Source: Leifsonia virtsii
GTDB taxonomy: Bacteria > Actinomycetota > Actinomycetes > Actinomycetales > Microbacteriaceae
Length of the DNA stretch: 64,000 bases
Direction: 5' to 3'
Assembly: GCF_030433675.1 (NCBI RefSeq)
Contig: NZ_JAROCB010000002.1
Span: 248,001-312,000, forward strand
Shown here: positions 28,024 through 36,478 of the stretch, in pieces
Position numbering within the stretch: position 1 is the first letter of the stretch
How the letters are laid out: every line of letters begins with the position of its first letter
The notes under the pieces: generated by a model
What the model saw: only the letters and a program-made list of their open reading frames with translations
What the model was told of the DNA's origin: nothing
Databases searched by the model: none
Position numbers and translations under genes: made by a program

Positions 28024-29211
28024 TCAGAGCGCCGGGTAGCTGGCCTGGAACTGCTCCTCGGTGTCCTGGTAGGGGGACGCGCCGGTGACGTTGTCGCCGC
28101 GGTTGGCGTTCGGTCGCGGCTGGCGCGGTGCGCTGTCGCCGTACTTTGCCTTCACGAGCGACTCGTGGGTGGGCGCGTCCGGGGTCTCCGGGTCCTTGCG
28201 GGCCTCGGTCTCCTTGCGCAGCACGGGGATGACGTGCTCGCCGAGCAGGTCGAGCTGCTCGAGCACCGTCTTCAGCGGCAGGCCGGCGTGATCCATCAGG
28301 AACAGCTGGCGCTGGTAGTCGCCCGCCCACTCGCGGAAGGTCAGCGTCTTGTCGATGACCTCCTGCGGGCTGCCGACGGTCAGCGGGGTCGCGTCCGTGA
28401 ACTCCTCCATCGTCGGGCCGTTGCCGTAGACGGGGGCCTCGTTGAAGTACGGGCGGAACTGGTCCTTCGCGTCCTGCGAGTTCTTCGCGATGAACGCCTG
28501 GCCGCCGAGGCCGACGATCGCCTGCTTGGCGGTGCCGTGGCCGTAGTGCTCGAAGCGCTCGCGGTAGAAGGCGATCAGCCGCTGGTAGTGCTCCTTCGGC
28601 CAGAAGATGTTGTTGGCGAAGAAGCCGTTGCCGTAGAACGCGGCCTGCTCGGCGATCTCCGGGGTGCGGATGCTGCCGTGCCAGACGAACGGGGGAACGT
28701 CGTCGAGCGGTCGCGGGGTGGAGGTGAAGCCCTGCAGCGGGGTGCGGAAGCGTCCCTCCCAGTCCACCACGTCCTCGTGCCACAGCCGATGCAGCAGGTT
28801 GTAGTTCTCGAGGGCGAGCGGCAGGCTCTGGCGGATGTCCTGGCCGAACCACGGGTACACAGGTCCCGTGTTGCCGCGGCCGATCATCAGGTCCATGCGG
28901 CCCTTCGACAGGTGCTGCAGCATCGCGTACTCCTCGGCGATGCGCACCGGGTCGTTCGTGGTGATCAGCGTGGTCGAGGTGGTCACCGTGAGCTTCTCGG
29001 TGAGCGCCGCGATGTGCGCGAGCAGGGTCGTGGGGGACGACGAGAAGAAGGGCGGGTTGTGGTGCTCGCCGATCGCGAAGACGTCGAGTCCGACCTCCTC
29101 CGCGTGCTTCGCGATCTTCACGATCGCGTCGATGCGCTCCGCCTCGCTCGGCGTCTCACCGGAGACCGGGTCCCGGGTGATGTCGCTGACGGAAAAGATT
29201 CCGTACTGCAT
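28024..29211 (-). CDS. LLM-class flavin-dependent oxidoreductase (CE1758 type)
   Basis: 395 residues of luciferase-like TIM barrel. Family blocks visible are DVFAIGEHHNPPF, LTVTTSTTLITTNDPVRIAEEYAMLQHLSKGRMDLMIGRG and ANNIFWPKEHYQRL-type sequence. It belongs with the FMN reductase as the CE1758/CE1759 two-component monooxygenase; the oxidised substrate is unknown. The C-terminal ~60 residues are polar. AGAGGAG precedes the ATG. A 14-bp palindrome lies upstream. Confidence 0.92.
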   Translation of the reverse strand: MQYGIFSVSDITRDPVSGETPSEAERIDAIVKIAKHAEEVGLDVFAIGEHHNPPFFSSSPTTLLAHIAALTEKLTVTTSTTLITTNDPVRIAEEYAMLQHLSKGRMDLMIGRGNTGPVYPWFGQDIRQSLPLALENYNLLHRLWHEDVVDWEGRFRTPLQGFTSTPRPLDDVPPFVWHGSIRTPEIAEQAAFYGNGFFANNIFWPKEHYQRLIAFYRERFEHYGHGTAKQAIVGLGGQAFIAKNSQDAKDQFRPYFNEAPVYGNGPTMEEFTDATPLTVGSPQEVIDKTLTFREWAGDYQRQLFLMDHAGLPLKTVLEQLDLLGEHVIPVLRKETEARKDPETPDAPTHESLVKAKYGDSAPRQPRPNANRGDNVTGASPYQDTEEQFQASYPAL

Positions 29212-29242
29212 GTCTGGCTCCTCTGATTGTTCTCGCCGTTTC

Positions 29243-29256
29243 TATGCAAACGCATA
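29243..29256. promoter_or_regulatory. Small palindrome upstream of the LLM/reductase operon
   Basis: TATGC-AAAC-GCATA in an AT-rich patch about 30-45 bases before the LLM start. Possible operator overlapping the promoter; no regulator gene is adjacent. Confidence 0.4.
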
Positions 29257-29322
29257 TAACGCGAGGCGGGCCGATGTATTCCCATCCTGGTCCTGCCTTC
29301 CCGTATCGGGTAGGGCGGCCCG

Positions 29323-29390
29323 CGACTGCGGTCGTCCGGAACGATTGCGGCTGCGCGCCGGCCCGCAGTTGTTCCGAACGACCGCAGTCG
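29323..29390. repeat. Intergenic palindrome, family D
   Basis: 20-base arms at 29323-29342 and 29371-29390 with one mismatch, and a 28-base centre that can form an inner GCGG/CCGC stem. It follows the LysM gene stop (29407, minus strand) and so probably ends that transcript before the LLM promoter. Confidence 0.8.
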
Positions 29391-29406
29391 CAGATGGAGG
29401 AGCAGG

Positions 29407-30288
29407 TCAGAGGGCCTGCGGGTCGAGATTCAGCGACTGGTCCTGGAGCAGGTTGAGGGCGCCGTCGTAGGCGCGACCGCTGGGGTTCAGCCACAGAAGA
29501 TCCTGCGAGGTGATGCCGAACCGCTGCGCGACGCCGTCGAACGTGTCCCCGGCCGCGACGACGTACCGCGCCGGAGCACCGGACGCGGTCGTGTCCGGCA
29601 CGCGCCCCGTCGCTCCCGCGCGCGCACCGCCGTCGACCGGGTGGACGTTGGTCGCGCGCTCCGGGATCGACCAGCGCACGGTGTTCACCGCGAGCACCTT
29701 GTCCGGGCCCAGCTCCACCGGGACTCCGTCGGCGGACGCGGCGGAGGAGTAGGTGACGAGCGTGCCGAGGTACGACGGGTTGCCGACGTAGCCGAGCTCG
29801 GCAGTCGAGGCGGCGGCCGTGCCGGTCGTGGGACCGCCGAGGCTGTGGTCGGCGACGCCGTGCCAGGTGAGGCCGTCTCCGACCTGCGGCGGGACGTCGA
29901 TCAGCGTGACCGAGACGGGGATCGGGACGGTCGACGTGAAGCCGGAGTACTGGATCGAGTAGGTGTTGTCGCCGTTCGACACGATCCGGTAGTGGAAGTG
30001 GATGCTGCCCTTCGGCGACGCCACGCTCGCCTCGGCGACGGCGGTGCCCGACGGGACGGGCGCGAGCGTCGGCGGCGGACCCGGCGGAGTCGTCGGCGTC
30101 GGTGTCGCGCTGGGCGTCGGCGTCACCGGCGCGGAGTGCGTGGGCTTGGGCTTCGCGGTCGTGTGCCGCGCGACGGGCTTCGCCTGCGCCCCTCCGTCGA
30201 AGAGCGCGCACCCCGACAGCGCGACGACGAGCGCGACGAGCATCCCTGCGGCGGCCGCGCTGCGGGCACGCCTGATCGTTCGAACCAT
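29407..30288 (-). CDS. LysM-domain lipoprotein
   Basis: 293 residues. A signal peptide ends in the lipobox VALSGC, followed by a Pro/Thr/Lys linker (TPTPSATPTPTTPPGPPP), a ~140-residue beta-rich outer region, and a C-terminal LysM motif YVVAAGDTFDGVAQRFGITSQDLLWLN that binds peptidoglycan. It should be anchored at the membrane and hold the wall. The start at 30288 has GGAGGGGGG upstream. Its ribosome-binding site and a TAGCGT -10 box (30305-30310) fall inside the 46-bp direct repeat. Confidence 0.88.
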   Translation of the reverse strand: MVRTIRRARSAAAAGMLVALVVALSGCALFDGGAQAKPVARHTTAKPKPTHSAPVTPTPSATPTPTTPPGPPPTLAPVPSGTAVAEASVASPKGSIHFHYRIVSNGDNTYSIQYSGFTSTVPIPVSVTLIDVPPQVGDGLTWHGVADHSLGGPTTGTAAASTAELGYVGNPSYLGTLVTYSSAASADGVPVELGPDKVLAVNTVRWSIPERATNVHPVDGGARAGATGRVPDTTASGAPARYVVAAGDTFDGVAQRFGITSQDLLWLNPSGRAYDGALNLLQDQSLNLDPQAL

Positions 30289-30294
30289 GTTCCC

Positions 30295-30340
30295 CCCTCC
30301 GGGAACGCTACCAAATCCGCGGTGGCCGGATCTCATCCAT
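30295..30340. repeat. 46-bp direct repeat, copy 1 (lysM side)
   Basis: Identical over 46 bases to 31211-31256. On the minus strand it holds TAGCGT (30310-30305) and part of the lysM ribosome-binding site. An ATCCG/CGGAT inverted repeat lies inside. It marks one end of a 916-bp insertion. Confidence 0.92.
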
Positions 30341-30342
30341 GC

Positions 30343-31173
30343 CTAGAGCGGGTACGACTCAAGGCCTCTTGTCGTTCCAGTGCAGACGTGCTGCATTACG
30401 TCCTCTAGGGAGTGGATCGCTGCTTCAACCTGGCCGAGGGGGGTGTAGGCCCCATCTGGCGCGTGCCCGGTCACACCCCAGTCCCAGCGCACCTCGGCTC
30501 CGCTGAGAGGGTCCTGAATAGCCATCGGGATAGCGGTGCGAGCTGTGACATAAGTGCCTCCGGATTCGAGATCGAGTTCGTGCTGCTCGAATTCGATACC
30601 AAAGTCGCCTGCGCCAGCTCGCCTCAGTGCGACCTGATAGTCCGAGCCCGTGTGGATTGGTGCGGCAGATACCAGGTCGGCATGCTTATCGAGGTTGTTC
30701 AGGCGTGCCAGCACCGCGAGGGCATCTGCGGCTGGCTGCTCGACATACTGGAACGGCTGGACTTGGCGGATTCGAGCAACCAATTCGGGTGGGATTGCAG
30801 ACAAGGCGGGCGCGACCTTGTCCCAAGAGTCAACCGACAGGGCAGCCGGAAAAGAGACCTTGTTTCGCCTCGAGAGTCCAGCGCCCGATAGTGACGAAAG
30901 CTCCCACGCGAAACTAGAAAGGGCTCCGCGAGCGTGATGGAGGGCCTCACTCATCGTGAGGGAAAGCTGCCGCACGGGCGCAGGTTCGTCAATATCTAGA
31001 TATAGAACGAACGTCTGTGGGTCTAGCTGCGTCCATGCAGGAGAGACGTGATCGCCACGGTTCCACCTCTGGGCGATCTCGAGCGTCTCCCTGGCGCGTT
31101 CTTTTGCACGCGCGAGCCTCTCCAACGGAGTGGTGGAGATGTCCACTCCAAACTCGATGGTTCGTTCACTCAT
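30343..31173 (-). CDS. Low-GC cargo gene of the direct-repeat cassette, function unknown
   Basis: 276 residues. The frame almost fills the insert: its stop is two bases from repeat copy 1 and its ATG 37 bases from copy 2. A 60-base sample (30541-30600) is 52% GC against ~70% around it, suggesting transfer. The protein has a helical segment ALHHARGALSSFAWELSSLS and the phrase ALAVLARLNNLDKHADLV. This resembles a widespread uncharacterised bacterial family with LDHL ... LNNxDKH patterns (recollection, unchecked). No membrane helix or signal peptide. TACGTT (31180-31185) lies six bases before the ATG, and a second TAGCGT sits in repeat copy 2. Confidence 0.8.
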   Translation of the reverse strand: MSERTIEFGVDISTTPLERLARAKERARETLEIAQRWNRGDHVSPAWTQLDPQTFVLYLDIDEPAPVRQLSLTMSEALHHARGALSSFAWELSSLSGAGLSRRNKVSFPAALSVDSWDKVAPALSAIPPELVARIRQVQPFQYVEQPAADALAVLARLNNLDKHADLVSAAPIHTGSDYQVALRRAGAGDFGIEFEQHELDLESGGTYVTARTAIPMAIQDPLSGAEVRWDWGVTGHAPDGAYTPLGQVEAAIHSLEDVMQHVCTGTTRGLESYPL

Positions 31174-31179
31174 GGGGTC

Positions 31180-31185
31180 AACGTA
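31180..31185 (-). promoter_or_regulatory. -10-like box of cassette gene
   Basis: TACGTT on the minus strand, six bases before the ATG at 31173. A second possible -10, TAGCGT (31226-31221), lies in the direct repeat upstream. Confidence 0.5.
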
Positions 31186-31210
31186 GAGGTTGTCGGCGCA
31201 GTCCGTGTAG

Positions 31211-31256
31211 CCCTCCGGGAACGCTACCAAATCCGCGGTGGCCGGATCTCATCCAT
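31211..31256. repeat. 46-bp direct repeat, copy 2 (EamA side)
   Basis: Second identical copy, 916 bases from the first. It lies just upstream of the cargo gene, so its TAGCGT would point into that gene. Confidence 0.92.
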
Positions 31257-31297
31257 TCGTGTCCGATTTCCGCACGCGCCCCGTCGGTGGCTCCCGC

Positions 31298-31303
31298 TAG
31301 CGT
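31298..31303 (+). promoter_or_regulatory. -10 box of leaderless EamA gene
   Basis: TAGCGT, six bases before the GTG at 31310. Confidence 0.65.
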
Positions 31304-31309
31304 CGAAAC

Positions 31310-32230
31310 GTGAAGATCGCCGTGCAGTTCGCCGCCATGGGGCTCATCTGGGGCGCCAGCTTCCTGTTCATGAAGGTGGCGCTCGAGGGCGTCTCGTTCG
31401 GCCAGGTGGCGTGGGCGCGGCTGGTCTTCGGGGCGGCGACGCTCGGCGTGATCGCGCTCGTGACGCGGGTGCGGCTTCCGCGCGAGCCGATCGTCTGGCT
31501 GCACTTCACCGTCGTCGCGGTCACCTACTGCGTCATCCCGTTCCTGCTGTTCGCCTGGGCGGAGCAGTACGTCTCCTCCAGCCTCGCGAGCATCTACAAC
31601 GCCGTGACGCCGATCACCACCGCGATCCTGGCCACTGCCGCGTTCCGGGTCGAGAAGCTCAACCGAGACCAGGTGCTCGGCGTGCTGGTCGGGGTCGTCG
31701 GCGTCATCGTCGTGGTCGGCCCGTGGGCGGTGGATGCGCTCGCCGGCAGCCTCTGGGGCCAGCTCGCGTGCCTCGGCGCGGTGACGTGCTACGGGTTCAG
31801 CTTCGGCTACATCCGCCGGTTCATCAGCCCGCGCGAGGTGTCCGCGACCGCGAGCGCCTTCCTGAACATCGGGCTCGCCGCCGTCATCATGGTGCTGCTC
31901 ACGCCGGTGGTCGCGTGGCATCCGATCTCGTTCAGCTGGCCGGTGCTGCTGTCGCTGCTGGCGCTCGGCGCGCTCGGCACGGGCGTCGTCTACATCTGGA
32001 ACATGAACGTGCTGCGCGCGTGGGGCCCGACCGCCACGTCGGGCGTCACGTACGTCACGCCGGTGGTGGGCGTGGCGCTGGGCATCCTCGTGCTCGGCGA
32101 GCACCTCACCTGGAACGAGCCCGTCGGCGCGGCGATCGTGCTGGCCGGCATCCTGCTGACCCAGCAGCGCGTGCGCCTGTTCACCCGCCGGCAGGCCGAG
32201 CTCGCCGCGCGGGAGGCCGCCGCGCGTTAG
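31310..32230 (+). CDS. EamA/DMT family transporter
   Basis: 306 residues with about ten membrane helices in two EamA repeats. The first begins AAMGLIWGASFLFMKVALEG and the second around GAVTCYGFSFGYIRRF; PVVGVALGILVLGEHL near the end is typical. Such proteins export metabolites or amino acids; substrate unknown. Leaderless GTG. Its stop overlaps the stop of the convergent esterase gene by two bases. Confidence 0.92.
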   Translation: MKIAVQFAAMGLIWGASFLFMKVALEGVSFGQVAWARLVFGAATLGVIALVTRVRLPREPIVWLHFTVVAVTYCVIPFLLFAWAEQYVSSSLASIYNAVTPITTAILATAAFRVEKLNRDQVLGVLVGVVGVIVVVGPWAVDALAGSLWGQLACLGAVTCYGFSFGYIRRFISPREVSATASAFLNIGLAAVIMVLLTPVVAWHPISFSWPVLLSLLALGALGTGVVYIWNMNVLRAWGPTATSGVTYVTPVVGVALGILVLGEHLTWNEPVGAAIVLAGILLTQQRVRLFTRRQAELAAREAAAR

Positions 32231-33228
32231 GCGTGCCGCTTCAGGAACGCGAGGGTCGCGTCCAGCGCCTCGTGCGCCTCGGCGAACTTCAGGTGGAACT
32301 GGTACTCGTGCGGCAGCTGCGGTTCGTGGTTGGCCGGCCAGAACAGCTCCGTCACCTCCACCCCCTTGCCGCGCAGCGTCGTCGCCATCGGCACCGACTG
32401 CGACCAGGTGAGGCCGTCGCCGTTGCCGCCGGAGATGTAGGTGGGCGGGAAGTCGCCGGTGACGTGCCGGAGGGTGGACATCGTGGAGCCGACGTAGGTC
32501 TGCGACCAGTCCTTGTCGCCGCTGTACGACCAGAGCGCCGTCTTGAAGCCCCAGGCGAGGATGCCGTTCAGCGTCGACAGCGCCCCCAGGTCGTACACGC
32601 CGCAGTTGAGCAGGATGGCGGACAACTGCTCGCGCCGCAGCGACGGCCGGATGCCGAGCAGGTGCGCGTACTCCGGGCTCGTCGTCAGCACGGCCAGCTG
32701 GCTGGCGAGCTGCGACCCGGCCGAGTCGCCGGCGAGGACGATGCGCTCCCGGTCGATCCCGAGCTCGTCCGCGTGGGCGTCGAGGTAGGCGAGGGCCGTG
32801 TTCAGCTGCTCGACCGCGGTCGGGTACGACGCCTCCGGCCCGAGCGTGTAGTCGAGCCCGACCGTCGCGTAGCCGTGCGAGGCGAGGATGCGCAGGTACG
32901 GGTCGACGTCCTTGCTGGCGCCCGAGATCCACGCGCCGCCGTGGATCCACACGACGGCCGGCAGCGGCCCCTTCTCGCCCTCCGGCCGGAACAGGTCGAA
33001 CGTCGTGTCGGGCGAGCCGGGCGCGTACCGCAGCCCGGTCTGCGCGGTCACGCCGCTGGTCGGGACGAACGGCTCCATCTCGGCGACCGTCTCGGCGGCG
33101 CCCTTCTCGAACACGCTGCGGATCACGAGCGCCGACGGCCACGGCGTGGCCCGCGCGATCCCGGCCGCGACGCCCGCAGCGGCGACCACTCCTCCGATGA
33201 TCCCCGCCGTCCGGCGCGCCCGTGTCAT
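32227..33228 (-). CDS. Alpha/beta hydrolase, HSL-type esterase
   Basis: 333 residues. An N-terminal hydrophobic stretch (about 7-25) may anchor it in the membrane. The oxyanion motif HGGAW and nucleophile elbow GDSAG place it in the hormone-sensitive-lipase family; DGLTW and NHEPQ near the end carry the likely acid and His. Acts on carboxyl esters; substrate unknown. Leaderless ATG with TACGGT six bases upstream. Confidence 0.9.
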   Translation of the reverse strand: MTRARRTAGIIGGVVAAAGVAAGIARATPWPSALVIRSVFEKGAAETVAEMEPFVPTSGVTAQTGLRYAPGSPDTTFDLFRPEGEKGPLPAVVWIHGGAWISGASKDVDPYLRILASHGYATVGLDYTLGPEASYPTAVEQLNTALAYLDAHADELGIDRERIVLAGDSAGSQLASQLAVLTTSPEYAHLLGIRPSLRREQLSAILLNCGVYDLGALSTLNGILAWGFKTALWSYSGDKDWSQTYVGSTMSTLRHVTGDFPPTYISGGNGDGLTWSQSVPMATTLRGKGVEVTELFWPANHEPQLPHEYQFHLKFAEAHEALDATLAFLKRHA

Positions 33229-33234
33229 GCCCTC

Positions 33235-33240
33235 ACCGTA
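33235..33240 (-). promoter_or_regulatory. -10 box of leaderless esterase
   Basis: TACGGT on the minus strand, six bases before the ATG at 33228. Confidence 0.65.
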
Positions 33241-33251
33241 TCGCGCCGTCC

Positions 33252-33305
33252 GCTCCTGAGTTCTTCGACCCGGCACGCCGGTGCGCGGTCGAAGAACTCA
33301 GGAGC
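33252..33305. repeat. Intergenic palindrome, family B copy 1 (after purL)
   Basis: Perfect 19-bp arms at 33252-33270 and 33287-33305 with the core GCTCCTGAGTTCTTCGA. It begins ten bases after the purL stop on the minus strand, so it probably terminates purL. A related copy follows purQ at 47751. Confidence 0.85.
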
Positions 33306-33315
33306 TGACGGGTGG

Positions 33316-35634
33316 TCAGGCGACCGTCGGGCCGAAGTGCTCGGGGAGGGTGGAGCGGTGCACGCCGCGCAGCTCCTCGACGCCGATCGTGAAGAGGTCC
33401 TGCACCTCGAGCACCGGCTGGGCGCCGACCTCGGCGTCCGTCACGCCGATGCGGAGAACCGGGATGCCGCGTCCCTCGCACAGACCGCGGAACTTCACGT
33501 CGTCCTCGCGCGGCACGCTCACGATCACGCGGGCGGTCGACTCGGAGAAGAGCGCGGTCGCCGCGTCCACACCGTCCCGCTCCTCGATCTCGGTCAGCCA
33601 GACGCGGGCGCCGACGCCGAACCGCATGACGCTCTCGGCCAGGGCCTGCGCGAGGCCGCCGTCGGCGAGGTCGTGCGCCGACGAGATGAGCCCCTCCTGC
33701 GCGGCCGCGTGCAGCGCCTCGGCGAGCGAGCGCTCGGCGGCGAGGTCGACCGCCGGCGGGTGACCGCCCAGGTGGCCGTGGATGGTGCCCGCCCACGCCG
33801 AGCCGTCCAGCTCCTCGCGGGTGATGCCGAGGAGGTAGATGTTCTCGCCCTCGTCCTGCCAGCCGCTCGGGATGCGGCGCGCGACGTCGTCGATCACGCC
33901 GAGCACGCCGACGACGGGCGTCGGGAAGATGGGGGTGTCGCCGGTCTGGTTGTAGAACGACACGTTGCCGCCGGTGACCGGGATCTCGAGCTCCAGGCAG
34001 GCGTCGGAGAGGCCCTCGACCGCCTGCGAGAACTGCCACATGACCTCGGGGTTCTCCGGGCTGCCGAAGTTGAGGCAGTCGGTGACCGCGACCGGGACGG
34101 CGCCGGAGGCGGCGACGTTGCGGTACGCCTCGGCGAGGGCGAGCTGTGCGCCCTGCTTCGGGTCGAGCTGGCAGTAGCGGCCGTTGGCGTCCGTCGCGAT
34201 GGCGAAGCCGAGGCCGGATTCCTCGTCGACCCGGATCATGCCCGCGTCGTCGGGGAAGGCGAGCGCCGTGTTGCCGCCGACGAAGTAGTCGTACTGGTCG
34301 GTGACCCAGCCCTTGTCGGCCAGGTTGGCGCTGCCCAGGAGGGCGAGCGTCTGCTCGCGCAGCTGGTCGCCGGTCGTGGGCCGGGCGAACACGGAGGCCG
34401 AGTCGTCCTGGAGGGCGTCGATCCACGTCGGGTAGGCCACGGGCCGCTCGTACACCGGGCCGTCGACCGCGACCGTGCGGGGGTCGACGTTGACGATCTC
34501 CTCGCCCTTCCAGTTGATGACGAGACGCCCGGTCTCGGTGACCTCGCCGAGCACGCTCGTCTCGACGTCCCACTTGGCGGTCACGGCGAGGAAGGCGTCG
34601 AGCAGCTCGGGCTTGACGACCGCCATCATGCGCTCCTGGCTCTCCGACATGAGGATCTCCTCCGCCGTGAGGCTCGGGTCGCGCAGCAGCACCTTGTCGA
34701 GCTCGATGAACATCCCGCCGTCGCCGTTGGACGCCAGCTCGCTGGTCGCGCACGAGATGCCGGCGGCGCCCAGGTCCTGGATGCCCTCGACCAGCTTGTC
34801 GCGGAACAGCTCGAGGCAGCACTCGATGAGCACCTTCTCGGCGAACGGGTCGCCCACCTGCACGGCCGGGCGCTTGGTCGGGCCGCCCGCGGAGAACGTG
34901 TCGGACGCGAGGATGCTGGCCCCGCCGATCCCGTCGCCGCCGGTGCGCGCGCCGAACAGCACGACCTTGTTGCCCTCGCCGGACGCGTTGGCCAGGTGCA
35001 GGTCCTCGTGGCGGAGCACGCCGACCGAGAGCGCGTTGACCAGCGGGTTGCCCTGGTACACCGGGTCGAAGTAGGTCTCGCCGCCGATGTTCGGAAGGCC
35101 CAGGCAGTTGCCGTAGAACGAGATGCCGGAGACGACGCCGTGCACGACGCGAGCGGTGTCCGGGTTGTCGATGGCGCCGAAGCGCAGCTGGTCCATCACC
35201 GCGACGGGACGCGCGCCCATCGAGATGATGTCGCGCACGATGCCGCCGACGCCGGTGGCGGCGCCCTGGAACGGCTCGATGTACGAGGGGTGGTTGTGCG
35301 ACTCCACCTTGAAGGTGACCGCCCAGCCCTCGCCGACGTCGACCACGCCGGCGTTCTCGCCCATGCCGACCATGAGGTTCTTCTTCATCGCCGGGCTGAC
35401 CTTCTGGCCGAACTGGCGCAGGTAGATCTTCGACGACTTGTAGGAGCAGTGCTCCGACCACATCACCGAGTACATCGCCAGCTCGCCGCTGGTGGGGCGG
35501 CGGCCGAGGATCTCGCGGATGCGGGCGTACTCGTCCTCCTTGAGCCCGAGCGCCGCGAACGGCTGCTCCCGCTCCGGGGTCTCGATCGCGTTCGCGACGG
35601 TGTCGACGACGTGCGTGGTGGTGGTGTCGGTCAC
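33316..35634 (-). CDS. purL: Phosphoribosylformylglycinamidine synthase, large subunit
   Basis: 772 residues, the short PurL form that works with separate PurQ and PurS. Makes FGAM from FGAR, ATP and ammonia in purine synthesis. Visible blocks: [44 protein letters not shown]-site GGETYFDP and IDDVARR-region repeats. GTG at 35634 has AGGAG eight to nine bases upstream, and TAGACT at 35678-35683 is a candidate -10. PurS and PurQ are encoded 12 kb away on the same strand. Confidence 0.98.
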
Positions 35635-35701
35635 GCGGGCACTCCTGGCTGGGCGGGGCAGGCGGGGGATGGGCTCCAGTCTACCGGGCGTGCCGGTGGG
35701 G

Positions 35702-36478
35702 TCACGCGGGGCAGAACTCCGAGGGGATGGTCTTCGACGGCCCGACCTGGATACCTCCCACCTTCCCCTCGAGAACCGCGAAGACGATCCAGGTGCCGCT
35801 GCCATTGCCGATGCCGTAGTAGCTCACGACATCGCCGTACTCGCCGGTCTTCTCGATGCCCGGGTACGCCGCCAGGAGCTCGTCGGGAGTGGACCCCACG
35901 CCGATGCCCTCTGCGGTCCTTGGCGTGGCAAGCTCGCGGTCACCGTTGGCGGTGAAGTTGTACCCGAGGTAGAGCTGATCGGTGAGCGTCGAGTCCGCCC
36001 CCCTGAACGCCGATAGAGCCAGCCCATCGGGAGCGACGAGGTCGCGCTGATGATCGCGACACACATCGTAGGTCTGATCGCTCCAACCGGGGACAAGTGC
36101 TGGCACTGTCGAGATGTCGACACCTACGCCGACCGGCCCGATGCCGTCGAAGCCGATGATCCAGGTCGACGGATCGGAGGGGTCCTGCGTCGGCGGGGTC
36201 GTCGCCGACGGTGTGAGTGTCGGTGCGGGCGTCGGCGTCGGGGTGAGGGTCGGTGTCGGCGTCGCCGTCGGCGCGGCGGCCGGAGTCAGGTCGAGCAGGC
36301 CGGTGCCCAAGGCGTAGGCGACCGTTCCTCCCGAGATCGACAGCGCCAGCACCACGAGCGTGGCGATGAGCGCGGTGCGCTTGCGTCCGCCGGCGCGTCC
36401 GGGGTGCGCGTCGGCGTTGGCGACCACGAGGTCGCGGATCGCCGCTTTGCGGCGCGGGTCGAAGGTGGGCTCGTTCAT
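35702..36478 (-). CDS. Single-pass membrane protein paired with ECF sigma factor
   Basis: 258 residues: a ~32-residue cytoplasmic N-terminus, one membrane helix (about 34-56), a Pro/Thr-rich spacer of [14 protein letters not shown] type, and an outer domain of ~155 residues with two Cys. The ATG overlaps the sigma gene stop (ATGA). The position is that of an anti-sigma factor, but the short cytoplasmic part lacks the zinc HxxxCxxC motif. It may be an atypical anti-sigma or a sensor. Confidence 0.75.

Follow-up and report, generated by a model that had tools for sequence, protein, structure and literature searches.

A foreign-looking single gene inserted between two copies of a 46-bp host sequence upstream of lysM in Leifsonia virtsii

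Introduction

Small att-type islets at tRNA genes consist of a short insert between direct repeats. In integron gene cassettes one gene fills the unit and the promoter lies outside the unit, and in the minimal mobile elements of Neisseria a single accessory gene is located between conserved neighbours. The insertion sequences IS1549 and IS1634 generate target duplications of variable length, from 8 to 514 bp, without a mechanistic model at the date of that report (PMC2266710). In eukaryotic work, fill-in of a staggered break combined with end joining is reported to duplicate the local sequence at the repaired break, with no element ends and no transposase (PMC8355091).

Here we consider a locus of Leifsonia virtsii, located within a 64-kb stretch of DNA that was analysed as a whole (hereafter the window), where 870 bp with one gene, which we call the cargo, lie between two copies of a 46-bp sequence in the interval between a lysM gene and an eamA transporter gene. 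Unlike the islets at tRNA genes, this locus has no tRNA gene and no integrase, its intergenic site drifts between species, and the repeat core was not found elsewhere. As in an integron cassette, a single gene fills the unit and apparently relies on an outside promoter; however, there is no array here and the repeats are host DNA, and the repeat follows the cargo stop codon at a distance of 2 bp, which leaves no room for an attC of the usual size. In contrast to the minimal mobile elements of Neisseria, no alternative cargo was seen at this site, and the presence of a direct duplication points to insertion rather than to exchange between the flanks. Long direct repeats made on insertion are shared with IS1549 and IS1634, whereas a transposase gene, ungapped inverted ends and an IS1634-family match in the genome are all missing. 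The eukaryotic duplications share the duplication of local sequence without element ends or transposase but are tandem, while here a whole foreign gene stands between the copies, the host is a bacterium with Ku and LigD, and the event is known from sequence alone.

Results

A single-gene insert between identical repeats

The two copies of the direct repeat lie exactly where a prior sequence-only reading of this DNA had placed them, at 30295-30340 (left) and 31211-31256 (right), are identical at 46 of 46 positions and are separated by 916 bp start to start. Both are considered on the minus strand: the left copy is the native lysM upstream region, with a TAGCGT box and most of the Shine-Dalgarno sequence, and the right copy is positioned just upstream of the cargo gene, pointing into it. 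The inserted DNA between them (30341-31210, no strand assigned) is the 870 bp missing from the empty sites of relatives described below. On one side lies lysM (29407-30288, minus strand), an intact open frame that matches Pfam LysM at E 1.1e-4, just over the cut-off, and whose start is our own choice, the ATG at 30288-30286 after GGAGGGGGG. On the other lies eamA (31310-32230, plus strand), divergent from the cargo, likewise an intact open frame and matching Pfam EamA at E 4.9e-37. Beyond these two, Pfam recognises luciferase-like monooxygenase, alpha/beta hydrolase and AIR synthase-type domains in the adjoining genes.

The insert has a GC content of 60.5% compared to 70.6% for the contig and holds a single credible gene of 276 codons for amino acids (30343-31173, minus strand; ATG 31173-31171, TAG 30345-30343), bearing out the earlier description of a foreign-looking single-gene insert. 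The gene fits tightly, with 37 bases between the right repeat copy and its ATG and 2 bp between its stop codon and the left copy; its frame can be read back to a TTG within the right repeat, and homologues align from near the ATG. Its third-position GC is 0.649, against 0.932 for lysM and 0.980 for eamA, and considering also its distant and patchily distributed relatives, the cargo gene looks foreign. Also in agreement with the sequence-only reading, no integrase or transposase was found in the insert ORF or among the five neighbouring genes scanned (28027-35805), and the 64-kb window contains no tRNA gene. We note a palindrome with AGCTCCTGAGTTCTTCGA at 33246-33311 of the window, which recurs across the contig, for example at G000:C3 211695, 295749 and 351705, and resembles a REP or shared terminator family.

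Empty sites in relatives

The eamA-side search covered 28 genomes of the genus and gave matches in 28 of 28. For the empty-site test, the window flanks 29401-30340 and 31257-31900 were joined at one repeat copy and aligned to the relatives. The joined flanks aligned without the insert across the site in six relatives of the genus, four of them almost gapless: L006, the nearest, in genome G016 (93.8% identity, 0 gaps), L007 (88.1%, 1 gap), L008 (87.3%, 2 gaps), L010 (87.2%, 0 gaps), L012 (79.7%, 17 gaps) and L013 (75.9%, 79 gaps). The remaining 21 of 27 loci in the genus (own excluded) gave no lysM by blastn or tblastn within 1.5 kb beside the match, and these loci are therefore uninformative on the insertion site. 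No occupied site was found in the other genus genomes among the 28 examined, and a homologue of the cargo is present in two of the 28, the own genome and G002, where it is located elsewhere and shares 29% identity. These alignments establish the 870 bp as an insertion, the relatives having an empty site in which the repeat sequence occurs once, which is the arrangement by which the sequence-only reading had suggested its proposed insertion be verified.

Deletion between direct repeats would also leave exactly one copy. One might consider the insert to be ancestral and lost from the relatives by precise recombination between the repeats. This would require several independent losses, however; at E 0.001 a homologue is missing from 26 of the 27 other genomes of the genus, and the two copies do not differ from each other although the site itself has diverged among species, so that we regard this history as highly improbable.

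The lysM gene itself looks accessory, since 7 of the 28 genomes of the genus were found to have it next to eamA; in L009, L011, L014, L015 and L019 the start of a luciferase-like gene seems, by eye, to stand directly upstream of eamA instead. Two insertions may thus have occurred at this spot.

Origin of the 46-bp repeat

The single copy of the repeat sequence differs from the window copies at 1 of 46 positions in L006, 4 in L007, 5 in L008, 7 in L010 and 9 in L012, and in L013 the region is too diverged for ungapped placement. The own genome holds just two copies of the 46-mer at up to 3 mismatches; the sequence-only reading had suggested a search for the repeat around other cargo genes, and none was found in the own genome. 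A 34-bp core at up to 3 mismatches was found in one of 398 genomes of the family, the own genome, and in none of the 397 others, a sample without G016, which carries this core once as native DNA at its own site. Viral contigs contain no exact match to a 26-bp core, and searches of the plasmid and phage collections with the region gave no DNA match. By these comparisons the 46 bp are local host DNA, drifting between species like its surroundings. Because of this local, drifting nature and the presence of just two copies in the own genome, the repeats are best read as a target duplication rather than as a carried attachment core; a carried core would need to match drifting intergenic DNA at 46 of 46 positions, a coincidence for which target duplication has no need.

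For a view of other such repeats, 1.988 Mb of the 4.199-Mb own genome were compared with themselves, using exact 18-base seeds and copies 250-8000 bp apart. The 46-bp pair is the longest direct repeat in the part scanned, followed by repeats of 41, 33, 32 and 30 bp; those of 41, 33 and 32 bp belong to repeats with many copies or a short period (C3:358 kb and C3:53 kb), and the 30-bp pair is located at C3:751940. A 1.7-kb stretch of lower GC content (0.637; C2:907032-908759) is flanked by 23-bp repeats, of which the left lies within a tRNA-Gly gene, and looks like a small att-type islet; since the scan picked it up, the scan can detect small integrated elements. A repeat at C3:727827 looks like a REP-type palindrome. 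At G000:C3:26272-28739, two genes that by eye are IS-like transposase genes are accompanied by a 19-base direct repeat, which occurs three times around them.

The tRNA-Gly islet indicates that the lineage does acquire elements of this kind, and two identical copies in the occupied site with one in the empty site is the geometry expected if a circle carrying the same 46-bp sequence, mobilised in trans, had integrated by site-specific or RecA-mediated recombination (att-type or Campbell-type). By eye, the repeat also contains an inverted heptamer pair matching in 6 of 7 positions (AAATCCG/CGGATCT) with a 7-bp spacer, which by rough estimate is about what chance would provide. However, the foreign circle would have to match a drifting local intergenic 46-mer at 46 of 46 positions, neither viral contigs nor the other 397 genomes of the family contain the cores, no DNA match came from plasmids or phages, and the insert carries no recombinase. 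The ends of the insert, moreover, show no terminal inverted repeat in ungapped comparison (permutation p 0.34). The att-type site or trans-mobilised element favoured by the sequence-only reading is thus not supported, the 46-mer differing at 1-9 positions in five relatives and its cores not having been found elsewhere, and we consider integration of such a circle unlikely, if still worth bearing in mind.

The cargo gene family

Homologues of the cargo share ~25-42% identity over the matched parts and occur in 15 of 398 family, 9 of 396 order and 15 of 394 class genomes, the own genome being included in each set and some genomes belonging to more than one; the cargo also has a homologue in three plasmid records. 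The family is uncharacterised, with conserved H..R..L...W and DKH motifs, the conserved residues including H80, R83, W91 and DKH163-165 (numbered as in P0001, whose sequence has an additional residue at its start). The alignment of the cargo with its homologues spans its length and, for most of eight, includes the start and end regions; the cargo therefore looks whole. It has no domain match in Pfam, NCBIfam or PHROG; an eight-member alignment gave two Pfam matches (E 0.035 and 0.063, one member each) and one PDB sequence match (E 2), and a single-sequence structure prediction yielded no reliable model (mean pLDDT 34.5). A PADLOC match to Csm4 (E 0.065), which also appeared with the eight-member alignment, was judged to be chance. 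No close relatives of the cargo were found in genome_contigs or phages; with the Streptomyces pair A2 as query, genome_contigs gave a single Streptomyces locus, which was left out of the analysis, and viral contigs gave none.

Thirty-eight homologue loci (own excluded) were compared with themselves for repeats, taking 1.5 kb on each side (3 kb for three of them) at E 0.01. A repeat pair on both sides of the homologue was found in three of the 38, L122, L034 and L044, and in none of the other 35. The repeats at L122 belong to a repeat family, considered below. L034, on a Streptomyces goshikiensis plasmid, has a 418-bp direct pair of 88% identity, ~4.7 kb apart and overlapping annotated transposase genes, as well as a 31-bp, 90% pair read as part of a degenerate duplication; the homologue between these transposase-overlapping repeats looks somewhat like the content of a composite transposon. 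The L044 pair (24 bp, 88%, E 0.009) was judged to be chance. At L036:2377-2566 a cargo homologue adjoins two near-identical 44-bp stretches that resemble parts of tRNA genes.

A non-autonomous transposon, moved by a transposase of the IS1549/IS1634 kind, would account for a long target duplication, such duplications of variable length being documented for both elements (PMC2266710). Three observations stand against it: no IS1634-family match in the own genome, with a model that matched 5 of 14 control genomes and exceeded its cut-off in one; no ungapped inverted repeat at the insert ends; and most cargo homologues without such flanking repeats within the 1.5-3 kb examined. We therefore think it very unlikely that the insert arrived in this manner.

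A cassette-like array around the best-scoring homologue

The best-scoring homologue, L122 in genome G895 (33% identity, E 8.9e-24), is located between two of 11 like-oriented sites spaced ~0.5-3 kb apart (C2:803-815 kb of that genome; sites at C2:803027-814888, covered by L134-L137, C2:775001-855000). Counting ORFs of at least 70 aa and omitting those that cross a site, seven of the 10 intervals between the sites contain one ORF, two contain two and one contains four. Genome-wide in G895, an 18-base core at up to 3 mismatches gave 29 matches (24 forward, 5 reverse) compared to one for the reversed control, and 26 of the 29, three poor ones having been dropped by eye, gave the consensus AAGGGGtTGcATTAACGATTaGTGGGGTTgCC. 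Further sites of this genome are at C1:337-341 kb, C1:89-99 kb, C1:129-130 kb, C2:202-205 kb and C2:565-566 kb. No integrase was apparent by eye in the one G895 array read. The genome has four tyrosine recombinase family matches, one of them under the cut-off; for the two that are full-length, the XerC and XerD models give the highest or nearly the highest scores, somewhat under the cut-offs of these models, and the integron integrase model scores them far lower. With up to 2 mismatches allowed, one or two site matches appear in 10 of 60 other genomes of the same family as G895; 8 genomes match the reversed control, and chance may thus account for most of these matches. Two of the matches, in G1150 and G1152, are exact. 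G895 is possibly an actinobacterial genome with Xer-driven cassette arrays.

The best-scoring homologue sits in an array with ~30-bp sites, and the only two full-length tyrosine recombinases encoded by that genome are closest to XerC and XerD. One may imagine that the cargo came from a pool of single-gene actinobacterial cassettes lacking their own recombinase and entered a host promoter by a promoter-duplicating process, capture and expression being accomplished in one step. The 46-mer of the window is, by eye, unlike the ~30-bp site of G895, and we give this scenario a slim chance.

The duplicated lysM upstream region

On the minus strand each repeat copy reads ...TTTGGTAGCGTTCCCGGAGGG, followed in the case of the left copy by GGGAACATG, the lysM start. 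The TAGCGT box, with TTTG before it, is kept in seven of seven genomes that have lysM at this place (own and six relatives). A consensus scan found no sigma-70-type promoter, so the label 'promoter' reflects conservation and position, and the promoter activity of the duplicated sequence is putative. The duplication of DNA just upstream of lysM, with one copy before each gene, agrees with what the sequence-only reading had described; the right copy may serve the cargo as a promoter. By eye, no Shine-Dalgarno sequence can be made out shortly before the cargo ATG, the GGAGGG of the repeat being ~37 nt upstream of it. With the cargo stop codon just 2 bp away from the left repeat, cargo and lysM may also be co-transcribed.

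Discussion

Our preferred, still tentative, explanation is a recent one-off capture of a foreign fragment with one intact gene at a staggered, filled-in break, plausibly by end joining. Let us assume that the DNA upstream of lysM was broken with its ends staggered by 46 nt. Foreign DNA would then have been joined between these ends, and fill-in of the single strands would have duplicated the 46 bp. Ku and LigD would be the likely joiners; the own genome contains Ku, with an 820-aa LigD gene product encoded adjacent to it. As the duplicated 46 bp would include the promoter of lysM together with most of its ribosome-binding site, lysM would keep its promoter and the cargo would gain one upstream. 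Selection would favour such an insertion among random ones, because neither neighbour is broken and the newcomer would be transcribed. The 46-bp repeats might also allow RecA to remove the insert precisely.

Two features by which capture through end joining might be recognised are found at this locus, namely a duplicated sequence that is host target DNA and the availability of Ku and LigD. The latter show the capacity for end joining only, and against its involvement no direct trace of end joining was found at the site. The donor DNA was not found in the genome_contigs, plasmid or phage collections. A stagger of 46 nt is long, and this counts against capture at such a break. It is also improbable that a random fragment would fit one gene as tightly as this (37 bp before the ATG and 2 bp after the stop codon) without selection or a defined cassette. 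The same end product, with no need for a site-specific enzyme, could perhaps be reached without a staggered break if a replicating polymerase switched template to copy the foreign DNA and re-entered 46 bp behind its exit point; nothing points to such template switching specifically, however, and we hold it to be rather improbable.

A gene acquired from elsewhere often lacks a promoter that its new host can use. At this locus, whose empty site can be traced, the insertion itself appears to have supplied one, a copy of host promoter DNA arising as a by-product. Within the 1.988 Mb scanned no comparable event was conspicuous, and this counts against the capture reading. If end joining does bring about such captures regularly, it would offer a simple route for single genes to enter a genome and be expressed without a mobile element, and a long target duplication around a single gene would be a signature that can be searched for in closely related genomes.
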